Assembly (NCBI GenBank): GCA_018003015.1
Contig: JAGNEZ010000050.1
Span: 1 to 47,385 of the forward strand
Length of the DNA stretch: 47,385 nt
Direction: 5' to 3'
DNA from: Phycisphaerae bacterium
GTDB taxonomy: Bacteria; Planctomycetota; Phycisphaerae; UBA1845; PWPN01
Part shown: piece by piece, positions 30,821 to 42,738 of the stretch
How positions within the stretch are numbered: the first letter of the stretch is position 1
Layout of the letters: each line of letters starts with the position of its first letter
Translations under genes and position numbers: made by a program
Notes under the pieces: model-generated
What the model saw: the letters and a program-made list of their open reading frames with translations, nothing else
Database searches by the model: none
Told to the model about the DNA's origin: nothing

Positions 30821-31432
30821 ATGTGTCAGCCGAACATAGGTCTGGAGAAACACCTCTTGCCACCCAATCCTCATCGACCGTATGTCAGTCGCGGCGGTGA
30901 GAAGCTGGCGGCCGCCCTGGACGCTTTCGGCATCGACCCAAAGGGCATGTCCTGCGCGGACCTGGGCAGCAATGTGGGGGGATTCGTCCATTGCCTGCTG
31001 CGGCGCGGCGCCTCCCGAGTCTACGCGATCGACACAGGCCACGGCGTTCTTGCCTACACGCTCCGAGTCGACCCGCGGGTGAGAGTCCTGGAGCGCACCA
31101 ACGCCATGCATGTTGCCTTGCCCGAGCAGGTCGATCTGGTGACCATCGACGCCGGCTGGACCCGGCAAGAGCATATCCTGCCCAACGCGACGAAGATGCT
31201 CCGGCCGGCAGGACGTATCATCAGCCTGATCAAGCCTCACTACGAATCTAGCCCCGAGAGGCTGCGCGAGGGTGTGCTTCCCCAGGCCGAGGCAACGGCC
31301 GCTCTGGCTCAGACCCTCGACCGTATCCGCGGGCTCGGCTTAGCCATCGACAGTCTCATCCCCAGCCCGATCCTCGGCCAGAAAGGCAATGCCGAGTTCC
31401 TGGCCCTGCTCAGCTGCCCATCGCAGCCATGA
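30821..31432 (+). CDS. TlyA/FtsJ-like rRNA methyltransferase lacking the S4 domain
   Basis: 203 residues from ATG 30821. P-Y-V-S-R-G-G-E-K-L, the SAM site A-D-L-G-S-N-V-G-G-F, Y-A-I-D-T-G-H-G, L-E-R-T-N-A and L-I-K-P-H-Y-E follow the TlyA order closely. TlyA makes 2'-O-methylcytidine in 16S and/or 23S rRNA. The usual N-terminal S4 RNA-binding domain (about 60 residues) is absent here, as only about 17 residues precede the methyltransferase block. The frame stays open upstream but is not S4-like. A TTG at 30857 with GGAG nine bases upstream is an alternative start. The gene's last 23 bases overlap the converging YebC-family gene. The terminator upstream implies its own promoter, which I cannot place. 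Confidence 0.85.
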   Translation: MCQPNIGLEKHLLPPNPHRPYVSRGGEKLAAALDAFGIDPKGMSCADLGSNVGGFVHCLLRRGASRVYAIDTGHGVLAYTLRVDPRVRVLERTNAMHVALPEQVDLVTIDAGWTRQEHILPNATKMLRPAGRIISLIKPHYESSPERLREGVLPQAEATAALAQTLDRIRGLGLAIDSLIPSPILGQKGNAEFLALLSCPSQP

Positions 31433-32159
31433 CATCGTCGGGAATGTCGAAGTTGGAATACACGTTCTGGATGTCGTCCTGGTCCTCGATGGCTTCGATC
31501 AGTTTAAGCAGCTTCTGACCGTTCTCCGCGTCCACCGTCACCGTGGTTGATGGCCGGCGGATGATTTCTGCGGACTGCGTCTGAATCCCGGCCTTGGCCA
31601 GCGCCTCTCGAATCGGCTCGAAGGCGGCAGGCTCGCAGACGATCTCCCAGACGTCCTCGGACTTGACGTAATCATCCGCGCCCGATTCCAGGGCAATCTC
31701 GCCGATCTTGTCCTCGTCCGCGGCCGCAACCGGCACCATGATCAGCCCCTTCGAGCTGAACATCCACTGCACGCAGCCGGCGGCCCCGATATTGCCTCCG
31801 TGTCGCTCGAAGATCTTCTTAATCTCAGGCGCGGTCCGGTTCCGATTATCCGTCAACGCCTCGGCCAGAACCGCCACCCCTCCAGGGCCGTAACCTTCGT
31901 AATAGACGGTCTCGTAGTTCGTGGCCTCGCCACCACCGACGCCCTTCTTGACTGCGTTCTCGATCGTATCCTTCGGCATGTTGGCCCCTTTGGCCTTGTC
32001 GATCGCGTAGCGCAAGGTCAGATTCTGGTCCGGGTCACCTCCTCCTCGTTTGGCGGCCACGATGATGTTCCTGGCGAGTTTGCTCCACAGGCGTCCGCGA
32101 CGAGCATCGGTCACGCCCTTTTTGTGCTTGATTCGTGCCCAGTGTGAATGCCCAGACAT
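31410..32159 (-). CDS. YebC/PmpR-family regulatory protein
   Basis: 249 residues, the usual length. The N-terminus M-S-G-H-S-H-W-A-R-I-K-H-K-K and the blocks A-R-R-G-R-L-W-S-K-L, N-Y-E-T-V-Y-Y-E-G-Y-G-P-G-G-V and D-D-V-Q-like C-terminal segments identify the family. Members act as DNA-binding regulators and, more recently, as factors that relieve ribosome stalling at proline-rich stretches; both roles are known of the family. The ATG has AAGGAG seven bases upstream. The stop lies inside the 3' end of the converging TlyA-like gene (23-bp overlap). Confidence 0.95.
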   Translation of the reverse strand: MSGHSHWARIKHKKGVTDARRGRLWSKLARNIIVAAKRGGGDPDQNLTLRYAIDKAKGANMPKDTIENAVKKGVGGGEATNYETVYYEGYGPGGVAVLAEALTDNRNRTAPEIKKIFERHGGNIGAAGCVQWMFSSKGLIMVPVAAADEDKIGEIALESGADDYVKSEDVWEIVCEPAAFEPIREALAKAGIQTQSAEIIRRPSTTVTVDAENGQKLLKLIEAIEDQDDIQNVYSNFDIPDDVMAAMGS

Positions 32160-36055: not shown

Positions 36056-36934
36056 CTAGGGAATAACCTTGCTCAACGGATAGACGATGATCCCCGAGGC
36101 TCCGACCTTCAGGAGTTGCGGAACAAGCACTCGCTCCGCCTTGGCCTCGAGGATGGCCTCCACGGCACTGTAACGCCCGTTGGCCAGCGGCGAGACCGTC
36201 GGGGACAGCTGGGCCGGCAAGAGGGCGAGCACTTTCTCGAGGTTCTCGTTGCCCACGTTCAGCTTCAGGCCGACCTTGGCCTTCGCTTCGATGGCACTGC
36301 GCAACAGCAAGGCGAGCGAGTCCGTCTTCTCCTTCTTCCACGAGTCTGCGTACGACCGGCGATTCGCGATCAGCCGCGTGGTCGACGTGAGCACCTCGTC
36401 CAGGATCCGCAGGTTGTTCTCCCGCAGCGACGAGCCCGTTTCGGTCAGTTCGACAATGCCGTCCACTAAGCGGGCCTTGACCTCGGTGGCTCCCCAGCTG
36501 AACTCGATGCGGACCTTGACACCCTTGCTCTCGAAGTACCGCCGGGTCGCATTGACCAGCTCGGTGGCGATGATACCTCCATCAAGATCCTCGACACGCT
36601 TCACGTTCGACTCGTTGGGCACGGCCAGCACCCACCGGGCCGGGCGGGCGCTCGTCTTGGAGTACACCAGCTCACAGACCTCGTGCACGTCGCTGCCGTT
36701 CTCCTTGATCCAATCGTGACCGGTCAGGCCGACATCCAGAACGCCGTCCTCGACATAGCGGCTCATCTCCTGAGCCCGGAACATCACGCAACTCAATTCG
36801 GGATCGTCGATCGACGGGTAGTACCCCCGTGAGGAGATCTGCAGGCTGAAGCCCGCGCGGGCAAAGAGATCGACGGTGGAATCAGCAAGGCTGCCCTTGG
36901 GGATACCCACCTTCAGAATCCGCTGATCAGTCAC
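36056..36934 (-). CDS. hisG: ATP phosphoribosyltransferase, long form (HisG)
   Basis: 292 residues, the long form with the C-terminal ACT-like regulatory domain and no need for HisZ. It joins ATP and PRPP in the first step of histidine synthesis, in the cytoplasm. Seen are I-G-I-P-K-G-S-L near the start, D-V-G-L-T-G-H-D-W-I, the PRPP loop region I-V-E-L-T-E-T-G-S-S-L-R, and the regulatory domain with L-P-A-Q-L-S-P-T-V-S-P-L. The start is GTG (36934), with AGGAG eight bases upstream. No other his gene is in the window; it lies 42 nt after the HhH-tail gene, inside a translation-factor run. Confidence 0.96.
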   Translation of the reverse strand: MTDQRILKVGIPKGSLADSTVDLFARAGFSLQISSRGYYPSIDDPELSCVMFRAQEMSRYVEDGVLDVGLTGHDWIKENGSDVHEVCELVYSKTSARPARWVLAVPNESNVKRVEDLDGGIIATELVNATRRYFESKGVKVRIEFSWGATEVKARLVDGIVELTETGSSLRENNLRILDEVLTSTTRLIANRRSYADSWKKEKTDSLALLLRSAIEAKAKVGLKLNVGNENLEKVLALLPAQLSPTVSPLANGRYSAVEAILEAKAERVLVPQLLKVGASGIIVYPLSKVIP

Positions 36935-36976: not shown

Positions 36977-38026
36977 TCATCTCTTGGTTTTGGCCGTCGC
37001 GACCGCTTTCTTGGGTTTGCCTGCGGTTGATTTGACTGCTGGCTCCACCTTGCCGCGTCCCTTGGCCCCAGGATCGCGCTTACCCCCCGCTTTGGATGCA
37101 GTTTCAGATCCGGATGAGGTCTTGACCGCCGACTCGGGTCTCGAGGGCGGCTTAGAGGCTGCATCCACCTTGAACGATGGCTTGGGACTCGGCCGCGGCT
37201 TCGCAGTCGCTTTCGCCGCGGCCGCAGGCTTGGCAGCCGTTTTGGTCGCCTCGGCCTTGGGGGAACCTTTGGAGGGCTCCGGCTTGCCGGCCGGCTTGGC
37301 CGGGGTAGTCTCCGCTTTCAGCGGCGGCTGGGGCTCTGCCTTGAGAGCGAGCTGGTCGGGGGCCGGCTTGGAGGCCGGTGGGTGCATCAACGTCGGAATG
37401 GCCTCCACATCAATCCGCATGGCATGCGCGGCGACGTAGCGACTGAGCAGCAGCGCGAACATCGGGGCCTCGGCGGCAGTGATGTGCCGCTCAATGAAGG
37501 CCTGAGCCTCAACCCCGTCAACGGCCGGATCGATCATGTCCTCCTTGCGAAGAATGTAAAGCGTCAGGTCGTCAACAGGAATGGCATGTCCGCCCAAAGA
37601 GAACAGGACGACTGAAGCGGCCGCCGCCCGGGGCACGCCGTCCAGTGACTCAAGGTATTCCCGAGCTTCACGACGCCCACGCTGCTGCAAGAAGGAAAGA
37701 TCCAGCGTGTCCTGCCGGCGGCGCACCGCGTTCAGGGCCTCAACGATCCGCCTCGCCTTGTCCGTCGCGTGGGGTACGCTGTCCCCGATCATCTCGGCCA
37801 ACTCCAGAGCCGGTGTGACCCGAAGCTCGTTCAGATCGACCATCTGCTGGGTGATCTTCCGATAGACCGCTTGTGCCTTGGTCTCCGTACTGTCAATCGC
37901 CAGGATCCCGATCACCAACTGCTCGAGCGGATCGACGGACTCGACTGCCGCTGGCTTCCCGTACTTGCTCACCAGGTCGTGATGCAGCCGCTTGATTCGC
38001 TTGGCATACTCCTTGCCATGCTTCAT
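36977..38026 (-). CDS. HhH-GPD (endonuclease III-like) protein with histone-H1-like basic tail
   Basis: 349 residues. Residues about 1-215 follow the endonuclease III fold: L-V-I-G-I-L-A-I-D-S-T-E (where EndoIII has L-L-S-A-Q), the hairpin L-D-G-V-P-R (128-133), and V-D-D (Asp152) at the catalytic aspartate position. The catalytic lysine after the hairpin Arg is replaced by Ala134, and there is no C-terminal 4Fe-4S cysteine cluster. Glycosylase/lyase activity is therefore unlikely as in classical EndoIII. Residues about 220-349 are almost only Ala, Lys, Pro, Ser and Gly, like histone H1 or AlgP-type tails. Its ATG overlaps the rbfA stop (ATGA). It is probably a DNA- or RNA-binding protein; the role is unknown. 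Confidence 0.8.
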   Translation of the reverse strand: MKHGKEYAKRIKRLHHDLVSKYGKPAAVESVDPLEQLVIGILAIDSTETKAQAVYRKITQQMVDLNELRVTPALELAEMIGDSVPHATDKARRIVEALNAVRRRQDTLDLSFLQQRGRREAREYLESLDGVPRAAAASVVLFSLGGHAIPVDDLTLYILRKEDMIDPAVDGVEAQAFIERHITAAEAPMFALLLSRYVAAHAMRIDVEAIPTLMHPPASKPAPDQLALKAEPQPPLKAETTPAKPAGKPEPSKGSPKAEATKTAAKPAAAAKATAKPRPSPKPSFKVDAASKPPSRPESAVKTSSGSETASKAGGKRDPGAKGRGKVEPAVKSTAGKPKKAVATAKTKR

Positions 38027-38445
38027 GCGTCTTCTCCGCCAGACTCACCCATCATTTGCCCGTCCTTCGCCGACCCCCGGGAGGCTTCGTCTCGGCGAAT
38101 CTCGGCCATGGCTTCGTCGATCAGGCGGTAGGTTTCCGCCGCCCGCTTGATCGATTCGTCCAGATGGAAACTCAGGTGGGGGCATTGCCTGATCGGCAAT
38201 TCCCCGGCCAAGAGCTTCTGCACCAGACCCGCCGCGGACCTGAGTCCCTGCATGGTCCGCCGTTGGACCGCGTCGTCACCCATCACGCTCACGAATACCT
38301 TGGCATGCTCGAGATCCTGAGTCACCTCCACTCGGGTCACGCTGGTCATCGGCTCGATCCGCGGGTCGCTCAGTTTCTGCGCGATGGCTTCGCTCACCAC
38401 CTGTTGGACCACGCTGGCTACCCGTTCCGGCCGAAATGACTTCAT
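38023..38445 (-). CDS. rbfA: Ribosome-binding factor A (RbfA)
   Basis: 140 residues. R-P-E-R-V-A-S-V-V-Q-Q-V-V-S-E-A-I at the N-terminus, D-P-R-I near residue 28, V-T-R-V-E-V-T-Q-D-L-E-H-A-K-V-F-V-S and a C-terminal H-L-S-F-H-L-D-E-S are the family blocks. It helps 30S maturation at the 16S rRNA 5' helix. It lies 48 nt after infB. Its stop overlaps the start of the HhH-tail gene by ATGA, so the next protein is translationally coupled. The last 20 residues are a Gly/Ser/Glu tail. Confidence 0.95.
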   Translation of the reverse strand: MKSFRPERVASVVQQVVSEAIAQKLSDPRIEPMTSVTRVEVTQDLEHAKVFVSVMGDDAVQRRTMQGLRSAAGLVQKLLAGELPIRQCPHLSFHLDESIKRAAETYRLIDEAMAEIRRDEASRGSAKDGQMMGESGGEDA

Positions 38446-38493: not shown

Positions 38494-41325
38494 CTAGAGC
38501 TTGCGCGCGGTCTCAATTACCTCGTAAGCCTCGATCACGTCGCCCGGCTTGACGTCGTCGAAGTCCTCAACCCGGATGCCGCACTCCATGCCCGATCGCA
38601 CTTCCCGAACATCGTCCTTGAACCGGCGTAGAGACCCCACCGACCGATGCCGCCCGCGCTTCACATCATCGGCTGTTGGGACGATGATCTGCCCGTCGCG
38701 GATCACCCGCAGCTTGTGCGCTCGAGCCACGATGCCGTCGGTGACCAGGCAGCCCGCGATGACGCCGACCCGCGACACCCGGAACGTCTCGCGAACCTCG
38801 GCCTTGCCCCGGCTCTCTTCCTTGCTCTCCGTCGGCAGCAGGCCCTCCAGCGCCTTGCGGATGTCGTCGGCCACGTCATAGATGATCCGGTACAGCCGGA
38901 CGGTCACGCCCTCGGCATCAGCCATCCGCTGCACGGTCGGGTCTGCGGCCACGTTGAAACCAACCACCATCGCCCCGCTCGCCGCGGCCAGCACCACATC
39001 GCTCTCGCTTACCGCACCGATCCCGGTGTGCAGGAAGGTCAGCTTGACCTCCTCGCTGGGAATCTCTTTCAACACCTTCACCAGAGCGTCAACCGAACCT
39101 TGCACGTCGGCTCGAAGGATCAGATTCAGTTCCGGAATCTGGCCGCTTTCCCGCTGCTGGAACAGGTCATCCAGCGTCTTCGGCTTCTGCAGCTGAACCA
39201 GGGCTTCCTGGCGACGCAGGTTGCCGGTCTCGGCCGCAACCGACTTGGCCCGCTGCAGAGACTCGACGCAGTAGAACGAGTCGCCCGCGTTGGGCACGGC
39301 ATCCAGACCTGCCACCTCGACCGGCACGCCGGGTCCGGCTGACTTCAGGACCCGCCCGCGATCGTCGCGCAGCATCCGCACCCGACCGGCGGCGGGGCCG
39401 GAGACCAGGTAGTCCCCGCGTTTCAGCGTCCCTTCCTGAACCAGCATGCGCACCACCGGCCCCACCGCCGACTGCATCTGGGCTTCGATCACCGCTCCAC
39501 GCGCCGGAACGGTCGGATCCGCCTTCAAATCCAGTAGCTCGGACAGGGTCGCCAAGTGGGCGATCAGCGCCTCGACGCCCGTCCCGGTCGTGGCCGAGGT
39601 CTTGATCACGTCCGTCTCTCCGCCCCACTCTGTCGGAGCCAGCCCCATCTCCGAAAGCTGGCCGTAAATCTTGTTGATGTCCACCCCGGGCAGATCGATC
39701 TTGTTTAGGGCAACCACGATGGCGACCTTGGCCGCCTTGGCGTGGTTGATCGCCTCGATCGTCTGGGGCATGAGACCATCGTCGGCGGCAACGACCAGCA
39801 CGACCACGTCGGTCATGTGGGCGCCACGAGCCCGCATCGCGGTGAACGCCTCATGGCCCGGGGTGTCGAGGAAAGTCACCGACAGGTCACCCCGCTCGAC
39901 GCGGTAAGCACCGATGTGCTGGGTGATCCCGCCCGCTTCTCCGCTGGCCACCGAAGTCCTCCGAATCGCGTCCAGCAGGCTGGTCTTGCCATGGTCCACG
40001 TGCCCCAGCATCGTCACCACCGGCGGGCGGCGCTGCAGGTTGCCACGCTCCCGGGCATCGAACTCGTCCTTAAGTCTTTCCAACTCGGTTTTCGGTTTCA
40101 CCACTTCGAGTTCGACTCCAAAGTCAAGCATCACCACCTGGGCCACGTCGGTCGGAATGACGCTATTCCTGCTGATCATCAGATTGTGTTCGTTCTTCAG
40201 CTTCGGGAATAGCTGGTTCAGCCCGATGCCCGTGGCCGCGCACAGCTGGTGCACCAGGATCGGTTCAGTCACCTGGGCACGAGTCTTGCGCGGAGCAACC
40301 ACGCCCGGAGCGTGGGCCGCCGCCTTCTCACGAGCCCGCCGGGCGTGAATGCCCCGGCCTGTTGCTTCCTGAAGCCTCTCCTGCCGCTCGAGCAGATCCC
40401 GGTCGTTCCATTCACGCAGGCGCTCGCCAACCTCGGCCAGCGACCCGCGCGTCCGGCGCGGGTTGGCCCGAACCTTGCTCTTACGCCCTTCGTCATCCCT
40501 CGCCGCCGTCCGGCCGTGACCCTGCCGCCCGCGACCCTCGCCCGTTTCCGCAAGATCATCGGGCGCAACCAGGGGTTCGCCGGGCCGGGCACGCGGAACA
40601 GGCCGGGGAATGACATCCGGCTTGGCAAAGCCGACGACGCGCGGACCTTTCATCTGGGCCGGCGCGGGAACGTTCTGTGGACCGGCCGGAGCAATCACCG
40701 CCGCCGGCCGAGCCGGCGGAGCGGGCTTGGCCGCCTTCGACGGATGAGCATGGGCGGGAGTCCGAGCCGCCGGGGTCGGCGCGACCACGGCCGCAGCGTC
40801 GGTGGGTGCGGCCGCAACCGTCTCGACCACCGGCGCTGCCGCCGCCACCGTGACCGGCGAGGCCACAGCCGCGAGGCTGTCCGGTTGGACGGCGGGTACC
40901 GGCTGCTCGGGGGCAATCACCGCCGGGGCCTCAGCGGCGACCGCGGGGACGACTGCCGGAGACGCCTCCGTCGGCGGCGCAACCTCGGGCACCACAACGG
41001 TCGTCTCCAGACCCGCCGGCACCGTCTCCGCTCCCTTCTCGGCTTCGACGTGTTCGCCAGCCTCCTCGCCTTTGGCCGACTTGCGGGCTCCGCCTCGGCG
41101 TCGACTTCGAACCTTGTCCAGGTCGACAGGAGCGGCCTCCTCCACCGCCGTGGCGTGCGTTCCCCCGCTGAACCACTCGCGGATCGTCTCCGCCAGTCCG
41201 GCCGAAACGGTCGACATGTGGTTCGTGATCCCATCGACCCCCTCAAGCTTGCACTTGTCGAGGATCGCCTTGCTGGTCACGCCCAGTTCCTTGCTGAGCG
41301 TATGAACGCGTAGCTTGTCAGCCAA
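38494..41325 (-). CDS. infB: Translation initiation factor IF-2
   Basis: 943 residues. The IF-2 N-terminal subdomain ([12 protein letters not shown]) is followed by an Ala/Val/Pro-rich linker (about 70-300) and a second basic N-domain. The GTPase has G-H-V-D-H-G-K-T (Lys447), D-T-P-G-H-E and N-K-I-D; the later domains bind fMet-tRNA and the ribosome. The start codon is TTG (41325) with AAGGAG seven bases upstream. No ATG lies before residue 37, and the family N-terminus begins at the TTG, so this rare start is well supported. It lies 15 nt after nusA, with the ribosome site right after the nusA stop. Confidence 0.97.
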
Positions 41326-41340
41326 AATCAGTCTCCTTGG

Positions 41341-42738
41341 CTACGCCGGCTGTTGCGAGGCACCCGTCTCCGGCGTCTGGACTCCCTCCGTCCCCAACGG
41401 CTCCGCCGGAGCTTCGGGCTTCGGCCCGTCACCGGCATCAGACGGCACGGTCGCTCCATCCACCGCACCCGCCTCCTCCGCAGCCGTGGCCGATCGGATC
41501 TCCGAGTCCGTCTCGACCCCGTCCGTCACGCTTGTCGCTGCCGATTCCGCGGCGGCCGCAGCCACTGCCGCGGCCTTCGCCGCCTCCGCCTCAGCCATCA
41601 ACCGCTTGGCAGCCTCACTGCTCGTGCTGATCACCTGCTGGGCCAGTTCCTCGCTCAATCCGAGAACCTTCATCAGCGGCTCGACCCCGATCTCCTCGAC
41701 ATCGCCCAGCGAAATGATGCCCATGGCCATCATCTTCTCGATCTTCTCGCTGGTCATGCCTTCAAGGGAGGACAGCACCTTCTCCATGTCATCCAGGCCC
41801 TTGTTGTATTCCTTCGGAGTGAGAATATCGATGTCCCAGCCGGTCAGTCGGGCCGCCAGACGAACATTCTGGCCTCGCTTGCCGATGGCCAGGGACAGCT
41901 GGTCGTCCGGAACCACGACGGTCGCTCTCCCCAGTTCGAAGCAAAGGGCCGTCTCTTCGACCTCAGCGGGCTTGAGGGCATTGTTAATCAGGATCTGGGA
42001 GGATTCATTCCAGCGCACGATGTCAATCTTCTCTCCACCCAGCTCCACGACGATGTTCTTGATGCGGCTCCCGCGAACACCTACGCACGCGCCCACCGCG
42101 TCCACCTTCATGTCAATCGATGAGACCGCGATCTTCGTCCGATACCCGGCCTCGCGAGCCAGGGCCTTCACCTCAATGATCCGCTCGGAAACCTCCGGAA
42201 CCTCAAGTTCGAACAACCGCCGGATGAAGTCCGGATGCGATCGGCTCAACACGATCTTGACCTGGTGGGGCGACTCCCGGACATCGAGGATGAGCGTGCG
42301 GATCCGCTCGCCAGGATGGTGAGTCTCACCCGGGATCTGCTCGCTCTTGGGCAAGAATCCCTCCGCACGACCCAGATTGATGATCAAAGCCCCGCCCTCA
42401 TATCGCGAGACGGTGCCGGTCACGACCGTGCCCTTGCGATCCTGAAACTCGTCAAAGATGCTGCCGCGCTCAGCCTCCCGGATCTTCTGGATCATGACCT
42501 GCTTGGCGGTCTGGGCCGCGATGCGCCCCAGGTCGCGCATGTCGATCGGCTGGCCGTTGCGGGCCGCGCTGATGTCTCCGGTGAGGCGATCAATCGAGAC
42601 CTTGACTTCATCGAGCTGCCCATAAGCCTTGCGGACCGCGGATTCCATCGCTTGCTCGAGGTCAAGGTAGACCTCGTCCTTCTCAATGTTCTTGTCCCGA
42701 GCAATGCTGTCAACGATTCGAACCAACTCAGCGTTCAT
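41341..42738 (-). CDS. nusA: Transcription elongation/termination factor NusA
   Basis: 465 residues. The N-terminal RNA-polymerase-binding domain, an S1 domain (about 105-180, G-T-V-S-R-Y-E-G-G-A-L-I), two KH domains (with G-V-R-G-S-R-I-K and I-G-K-R-G-Q-N-V-R) and a helical C-terminal region follow in order. The last 90 residues are an Ala/Glu-rich low-complexity tail. NusA binds RNA polymerase and enhances pausing and hairpin termination. It starts a run with infB, rbfA and further genes; rimP, its usual upstream neighbour, is missing. An intrinsic-terminator-like hairpin lies 26 nt before its ATG. Confidence 0.97.
   Translation of the reverse strand: MNAELVRIVDSIARDKNIEKDEVYLDLEQAMESAVRKAYGQLDEVKVSIDRLTGDISAARNGQPIDMRDLGRIAAQTAKQVMIQKIREAERGSIFDEFQDRKGTVVTGTVSRYEGGALIINLGRAEGFLPKSEQIPGETHHPGERIRTLILDVRESPHQVKIVLSRSHPDFIRRLFELEVPEVSERIIEVKALAREAGYRTKIAVSSIDMKVDAVGACVGVRGSRIKNIVVELGGEKIDIVRWNESSQILINNALKPAEVEETALCFELGRATVVVPDDQLSLAIGKRGQNVRLAARLTGWDIDILTPKEYNKGLDDMEKVLSSLEGMTSEKIEKMMAMGIISLGDVEEIGVEPLMKVLGLSEELAQQVISTSSEAAKRLMAEAEAAKAAAVAAAAAESAATSVTDGVETDSEIRSATAAEEAGAVDGATVPSDAGDGPKPEAPAEPLGTEGVQTPETGASQQPA

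Follow-up and report, generated by a model that had tools for sequence, protein, structure and literature searches.

The closest solved relatives of the protein described here, by both sequence and fold, are EndoIII-1 (DR2438) and EndoIII-3 of D. radiodurans. The accessible text of PMC10523315 reports that the D. radiodurans EndoIII proteins carry a [4Fe-4S] cluster and have the family's Asp and Lys in the cleft, that DrEndoIII1 works mostly as a monofunctional glycosylase, and that EndoIII-3 binds DNA with no detectable EndoIII activity. MIG thymine-DNA glycosylase, AlkA and Sis-HhH-GPD belong to the same fold superfamily. According to the accessible part of PMC11754123, these HhH-GPD enzymes are active without the Lys, having Tyr, Trp and Glu, respectively, at that site, and Sis-HhH-GPD is active also without the Asp. 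Here we describe an EndoIII-like gene that follows rbfA in planctomycete genomes, whose product is best read as having a function outside base-excision repair.

Results

The window, that is, the whole stretch of 47,385 nucleotides that was analysed (Phycisphaerae bacterium, contig JAGNEZ010000050.1), comes from a 98.67% complete genome whose 144 contigs total 6.86 Mb. The EndoIII-like gene lies on the minus strand at 36977..38026, starts with ATG and encodes 349 aa; the frame read on the plus strand of the same interval contained stops. The gene order on the minus strand was nusA (41341..42738; PF08529, PF13184), infB for initiation factor IF-2 (38494..41325; PF11987, PF00009), rbfA for ribosome-binding factor A (38023..38445; PF02033, E 1.9e-29; TIGR00082 above its cut-off), the EndoIII-like gene, hisG as the next gene downstream (36056..36934; PF01634, E 1.2e-43), a gene for a TPR protein and, farther downstream, a gene for a YebC/TACO1-type translation factor (31410..32159; PF01709, PF20772). 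The original prediction, made from the DNA sequence, had placed the gene within a run of translation-factor genes, with its start overlapping the rbfA stop. Both points held: nusA, infB and rbfA precede it on the same strand, and the rbfA stop and the start of the gene share 4 nt (ATGA, 38023..38026, minus strand).

In E. coli K-12, nusA-infB-rbfA is followed immediately by truB, with a 1-nt overlap, and the EndoIII-like gene has the same place and overlap style as truB in the enterobacterial operon. However, TruB and the EndoIII-like protein have unrelated folds, and TruB of the class, where present, is encoded elsewhere in the genome. The simple idea that the gene replaced TruB was rejected, since the EndoIII-like gene is present whether or not a genome has TruB. 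The TruB_N domain (PF01509) was missing from 13/13 genomes of the window's family (f1), several of which are 97–100% complete, and was found in 8/8 other relatives, in 56 of 100 near-complete class genomes, with absences that followed families, and in 14/14 control genomes. Either this near-universal enzyme, the tRNA pseudouridine-55 synthase, has been lost repeatedly, or the genomes in question have a version that is invisible to Pfam.

The sequence-only tie of the window protein to the EndoIII family was weak. Pfam gave zero matches at E≤1, with PF00730 below its gathering score, and PF00730 was matched at E≤0.01 by only 2/80 class members. In NCBIfam, the protein scored 47.7 bits (E 1.3e-12) against MonDNAglycDR2438 (NF053634; cut-off 400) and 13.6 bits against nth (TIGR01083; cut-off 211.7). 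MonDNAglycDR2438, the nearest named family, was matched at E≤0.01 by 69/80 class members, and the closest PDB chain by sequence was D. radiodurans EndoIII-1 (E 7.6e-8). An AlphaFold model of the core (215 residues), built on an alignment of 80 class members, had a pLDDT of 96.6 and a pTM of 0.92. Comparisons with this model retrieved the EndoIII structure 8a5f with Foldseek (E 2.9e-8) and 4uob with VIA (Z 18.5, rmsd 3.5, 205 aligned). As modelled, the core (residues 1–204; 37415..38026, minus strand) is an all-helical two-domain EndoIII/HhH-GPD fold, and residues 214–349 of the full-length model were devoid of secondary structure. The proposal of an EndoIII-like domain fused to an H1-like tail was borne out by structure prediction, in which the core was modelled with confidence as EndoIII-type and the tail as unstructured.

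The hairpin of the window protein reads LDGVPRAAAAS, and alignment placed Ala134 (37625..37627, minus strand) at the site of the Nth catalytic lysine. Asp152 (37571..37573, minus strand), in the motif PVDD, was placed by alignment at the catalytic-Asp site, and the translation contains no Cys among its 349 aa. The replacement of the hairpin-adjacent lysine by Ala and the missing Fe-S cysteines, as read in the original prediction, were therefore both upheld. The GxG of the hairpin holds the DNA backbone in the HhH-GPD fold; the window protein has GVP there. Compared with endonuclease III (Nth, TIGR01083), the protein shares the fold, Asp152 and a weak profile match, but lacks the Lys, the Fe-S cluster and the hairpin GxG and scores below the TIGR01083 cut-off. 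Unlike the D. radiodurans EndoIII proteins, it has neither cluster nor Lys, carries a long basic tail and is encoded after rbfA.

The 204-residue core was matched at E≤0.001 in 287/298 class genomes, although a few of the lower-scoring ones could be paralogues, and in 230/231 near-complete ones (≥90% complete, ≤5% contaminated). Within family f1, 12/13 genomes matched and the orthologue was in view in 11/13; in genome G010 (84% complete), the paralogues L017 and L020 were the sole matches and the orthologue was not seen. Across the phylum, a search with a single-protein query matched 194/294 genomes, and a profile matched 363/393 genomes at E≤1e-6, a count that possibly includes paralogues. 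A scan of genome contigs gave 4 loci, all from Planctomycetota or Phycisphaerae, and the single weak match in a plasmid search was an archaeal endonuclease III. The EndoIII-like family is found throughout the window's class and in much of the phylum; because sampling stayed within the phylum, we do not claim that it is confined to Planctomycetota.

For comparison of residues, 189 distinct EndoIII-type cores were assembled (153 rbfA-linked, 25 motif-bearing but unlinked, and 11 paralogues) after removal of duplicate loci (L001–L005) and near-identical cores. In the linked members, the matched rbfA domain lay upstream of the core and on the same strand, at a domain-to-domain distance of 45–508 nt. 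Nine second-hit loci (L017–L025) were treated as paralogues, outside the class count. Selection was non-random: class loci were mainly top scorers, with 20 more drawn from the bottom of the listed score range, and loci from outside the class comprised 40 high scorers, 20 weaker ones and 10 from the search itself.

Lysine was found at the lysine site in 0/153 linked members. Phe or Tyr occupied the site in 128/153 (82 and 46, respectively), and the rest had H (5), A (3), C (3), S (3), T (2), D (2), N (2), R (2), G, M or W (1 each). A lysine at the neighbouring position, aligned with the residue that precedes the Nth lysine, was seen in 6/153 linked members; a lysine in the column itself was seen in 1/25 unlinked members (L189), beside gaps in a poorly aligned row. 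No family-wide substitute catalytic residue was evident at this site among the 153 linked members; in particular, and unlike in Sis-HhH-GPD, Glu occurred in 0/153. The Asp column of the same members contained D (101), N (19), T (15), S (9), G (4), H (3), Y (1) and E (1). The original prediction that the Asp is kept was correct for the window protein, for every close relative and for the whole of family f1, but not for the 52/153 linked members from which Asp is absent. A quick tree, built from the 153 members with the Asp column excluded, required at least 14 switches between Asp and non-Asp. Paralogues had Asp in 11/11 cases, and the second Gly of the hairpin was present in 6/153 linked members versus 11/11 paralogues.

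The four-Cys Fe-S pattern was found in 0/111 class members (one regular-expression match, L214, was set aside as an artefact of an N-terminal extension), in 10/42 linked members outside the class and in 17/25 unlinked members. Since lysine loss is common to essentially the whole family and cluster loss is partial, the alignment suggests that the lysine was lost before the Fe-S cluster. Homologues that keep both features would speak against the non-repair proposal; lysine was absent from all 153 linked orthologues, but the Fe-S cysteines do occur in some orthologues outside the class, and lysine and cluster were kept together only in paralogues elsewhere in the genomes (L017–L019, L078). For orthologues, this check favoured the proposal. 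Across orthologues, the EndoIII catalytic apparatus was not conserved. Repair catalysis is very probably not the conserved job of the family, the case for loss of the repair role is strong, and the residue patterns suggest that glycosylase activity is lacking.

An unlikely alternative is that the protein is a monofunctional DNA glycosylase of unusual specificity, based on Asp152 and without a lyase step, in which the tail would aid DNA scanning and the place in the operon would be regulatory or historical. The main fact on its side is the retention of Asp152 in the window protein, of the same residue in all of f1, and of Asp in 101/153 members; MonDNAglycDR2438 is the nearest named family, as described above, and a clusterless MutY structure (8uuc) exists. 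IF2 reportedly has a role in genome integrity as well (PMC3334882). The mostly monofunctional DrEndoIII1 (PMC10523315, accessible text) and the Tyr of MIG and Trp of AlkA at the lysine site (PMC11754123, accessible part) count in the same direction. However, Asp has given way to N, T, S, G, H, Y or E in 52/153 members, through at least 14 changes, while the gene, its linkage and its motif stay, and 147/153 lack the second hairpin Gly. Moreover, canonical repair glycosylases are encoded separately in the genome of the window, which contains Nth (L078, with the lysine and four Cys), MutY (L079), a MagIII-like protein (L080) and an additional HhH-GPD match in L081.

The most conserved feature of the family is a motif, D64-x-N66-E67-x-R69-V70 (37817..37837, minus strand), which was not found in the paralogues. 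Among the 153 linked members, R69 was conserved in 153, N66 and D64 in 151 each, and V70 in 146. Ranked by column entropy over 183 sites, R69, N66, D64 and V70 were the top four, followed by P150, L98 and E75, with the Asp site at 32nd and the lysine site at 43rd. In the AlphaFold model, the motif comes after the C-terminal end of helix 48–61, and the N-terminal end of this helix bears the loop corresponding to the first DNA-intercalating loop. Being at the opposite helix end from this loop, the motif, judged from helix order, probably faces away from the DNA side.

The tail of the window protein (residues 205–349; 36980..37414, minus strand) is rich in Ala, Lys and Pro and was measured at 145 aa with K25 and R5 and a net charge of +18, in line with the roughly 130 residues originally predicted. 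A tail of at least 20 residues past the core was present in 137/150 linked members with a closed frame and was shorter in 13/150; net charge was at least +5 in 125/137 of the longer tails and below +5 in 12/137. The last 30 aa carried at least +5 in 131/150 members, versus 0/187 RbfA, 0/85 HisG, 0/36 YebC and 0/159 InfB control frames from the same loci, duplicates counted. Judged by composition, the basic tail is a family trait. The charge of the core was rejected as an argument against DNA binding, since its median was −4 versus −5 in the paralogues.

A long, disordered, basic stretch rich in Lys, Ala and Pro is also found in histone H1-like bacterial proteins, and the protein might act on the nucleoid, with a tail that condenses DNA and a dead core that gives weak structure- or damage-specific targeting. 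The low-complexity A/K/P/S/T/G-rich tail, which has a net charge of +18 in the window protein and is also strongly basic in the majority of its relatives, is predicted to be unstructured, and the catalytically silent EndoIII homologue DrEndoIII3 still binds DNA (PMC10523315, accessible text). We nevertheless consider a nucleoid role improbable: the conserved partners belong to translation and to transcription-translation coupling and not to chromosome organisation, the hairpin GxG is lost, and the tail is short in some lineages.

The preferred role beside RbfA was supported by the linkage between the two genes: in 153/178 distinct motif-bearing members, rbfA was the gene immediately upstream and had the same orientation. 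The coupling to rbfA seen in the window extended to relatives, in 111/111 distinct loci examined within the class and in 42/68 outside it, where the remainder were 25 motif-bearing unlinked members and 1 paralogue. Of the first 89 linked loci, 56 had a 4-nt overlap of the two genes and 6 an overlap of another length; the genes were 0–30 nt apart in 18 and farther apart in 9. It is very unlikely that the gene is merely an operon hitchhiker, with a function unrelated to RbfA and a place kept for expression level only. On the side of this reading, hisG, a histidine-biosynthesis gene, comes next in the window and at many class loci, so that the operon is functionally mixed. In addition, 25 motif-bearing members are located away from rbfA, and in 16 of these hisG, yebC or both still follow within the stretch that was read. 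Against it, rbfA is the invariant partner while hisG and yebC vary between loci, and the start and stop overlap in most loci.

A family tree was built from 72 rows, comprising 59 motif-bearing members and 13 paralogues (Nth and MutY of the window's own genome, and MagIII-like and EndoIII-1-like proteins). The branch dividing the two sets had support of 92/90 and was recovered in 90% of bootstrap trees. Another branch, with support of 96/73, had the class members on one side; several rows from outside the class were long branches, and the branching detail there is therefore unsafe. Four paralogues from some of the relatives (L017, L018, L019 and L191) resemble D. radiodurans EndoIII-1 and have the lysine, the Asp and the Fe-S cysteines; these may be the closest to the ancestor from which the rbfA-linked family arose.

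Discussion

What the family retained was its place in the operon, the motif surface and the tail, and what it did not retain was the residues of glycosylase and lyase chemistry; we therefore regard it as a fold recruited to a non-repair role. The original prediction of a nucleic-acid-binding protein rather than a repair enzyme stands in its second part, as the best reading of the unconserved catalysis, the rbfA linkage and the basic tail; nucleic-acid binding remains putative.

In the mechanism we propose, an EndoIII-type DNA glycosylase would have become a non-repair accessory of nusA-infB-rbfA early in the phylum. Its core would have lost the lysine nucleophile everywhere, the Asp repeatedly and the Fe-S cluster in the class, and would have kept D-x-N-E-x-R-V as a family-specific surface through which it most likely docks on a partner. 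The disordered basic tail may contact nucleic acid, for which, from the gene neighbourhood, rRNA in maturing 30S subunits would be the likeliest target, and translational coupling would keep synthesis in step with RbfA. The ribosomal and rRNA reading derives from the neighbours RbfA (30S assembly), IF2, NusA and YebC, the last of which, in other bacteria, is a translation factor that contacts 23S rRNA according to the accessible part of PMC12234827.

The evidence for a former DNA-glycosylase fold that is now a non-repair accessory of nusA-infB-rbfA, probably directed to RNA or the ribosome, appears to us evenly balanced, and we propose the ribosome as the place of action with moderate confidence. 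More tentatively, the protein could be a phylum-wide translation or ribosome-assembly factor made from a glycosylase that lost its lysine, then its Fe-S cluster and often its Asp, and that acts together with RbfA, docking through a new D-x-N-E-x-R-V surface and binding rRNA with its tail. Several observations count against our best explanation: the Asp is kept in the window protein and its close relatives, HhH-GPD enzymes can be active without the Lys and, in one case, without the Asp (PMC11754123), the tail is not universal, and 25/178 motif-bearing members have no adjoining rbfA.

If the explanation is true, a base-excision-repair fold has turned into a core translation accessory throughout an entire phylum of bacteria. 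Such a switch of function would be unusual, and its intermediates would still be visible in some lineages, with the lysine lost and the Fe-S cluster kept. Automatic annotation would miss the family, which has no Pfam match, or could mislabel it as endonuclease III. We recognised no paper describing the family within the literature covered, subscription papers and some preprints lying beyond its scope. In Planctopirus limnophila, 108 planctomycete-specific proteins of unknown function are essential according to the accessible part of PMC10632474, and the EndoIII-like protein is a near-universal candidate among planctomycete-specific proteins of unknown function. The main text of the planctomycete essential-gene papers, in its accessible parts, names neither rbfA nor endonuclease III.

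Two variants of the gene were also observed. At L087:3714-5309, an EndoIII-like core and HisG share one open frame of 532 aa, which is either a gene fusion or an assembly or frame error. In the genus g58 (L064, L067, L070, L207 and L223), the gene follows rbfA and its tail extends 10–14 residues past the core; this genus is a natural tail-less comparison.
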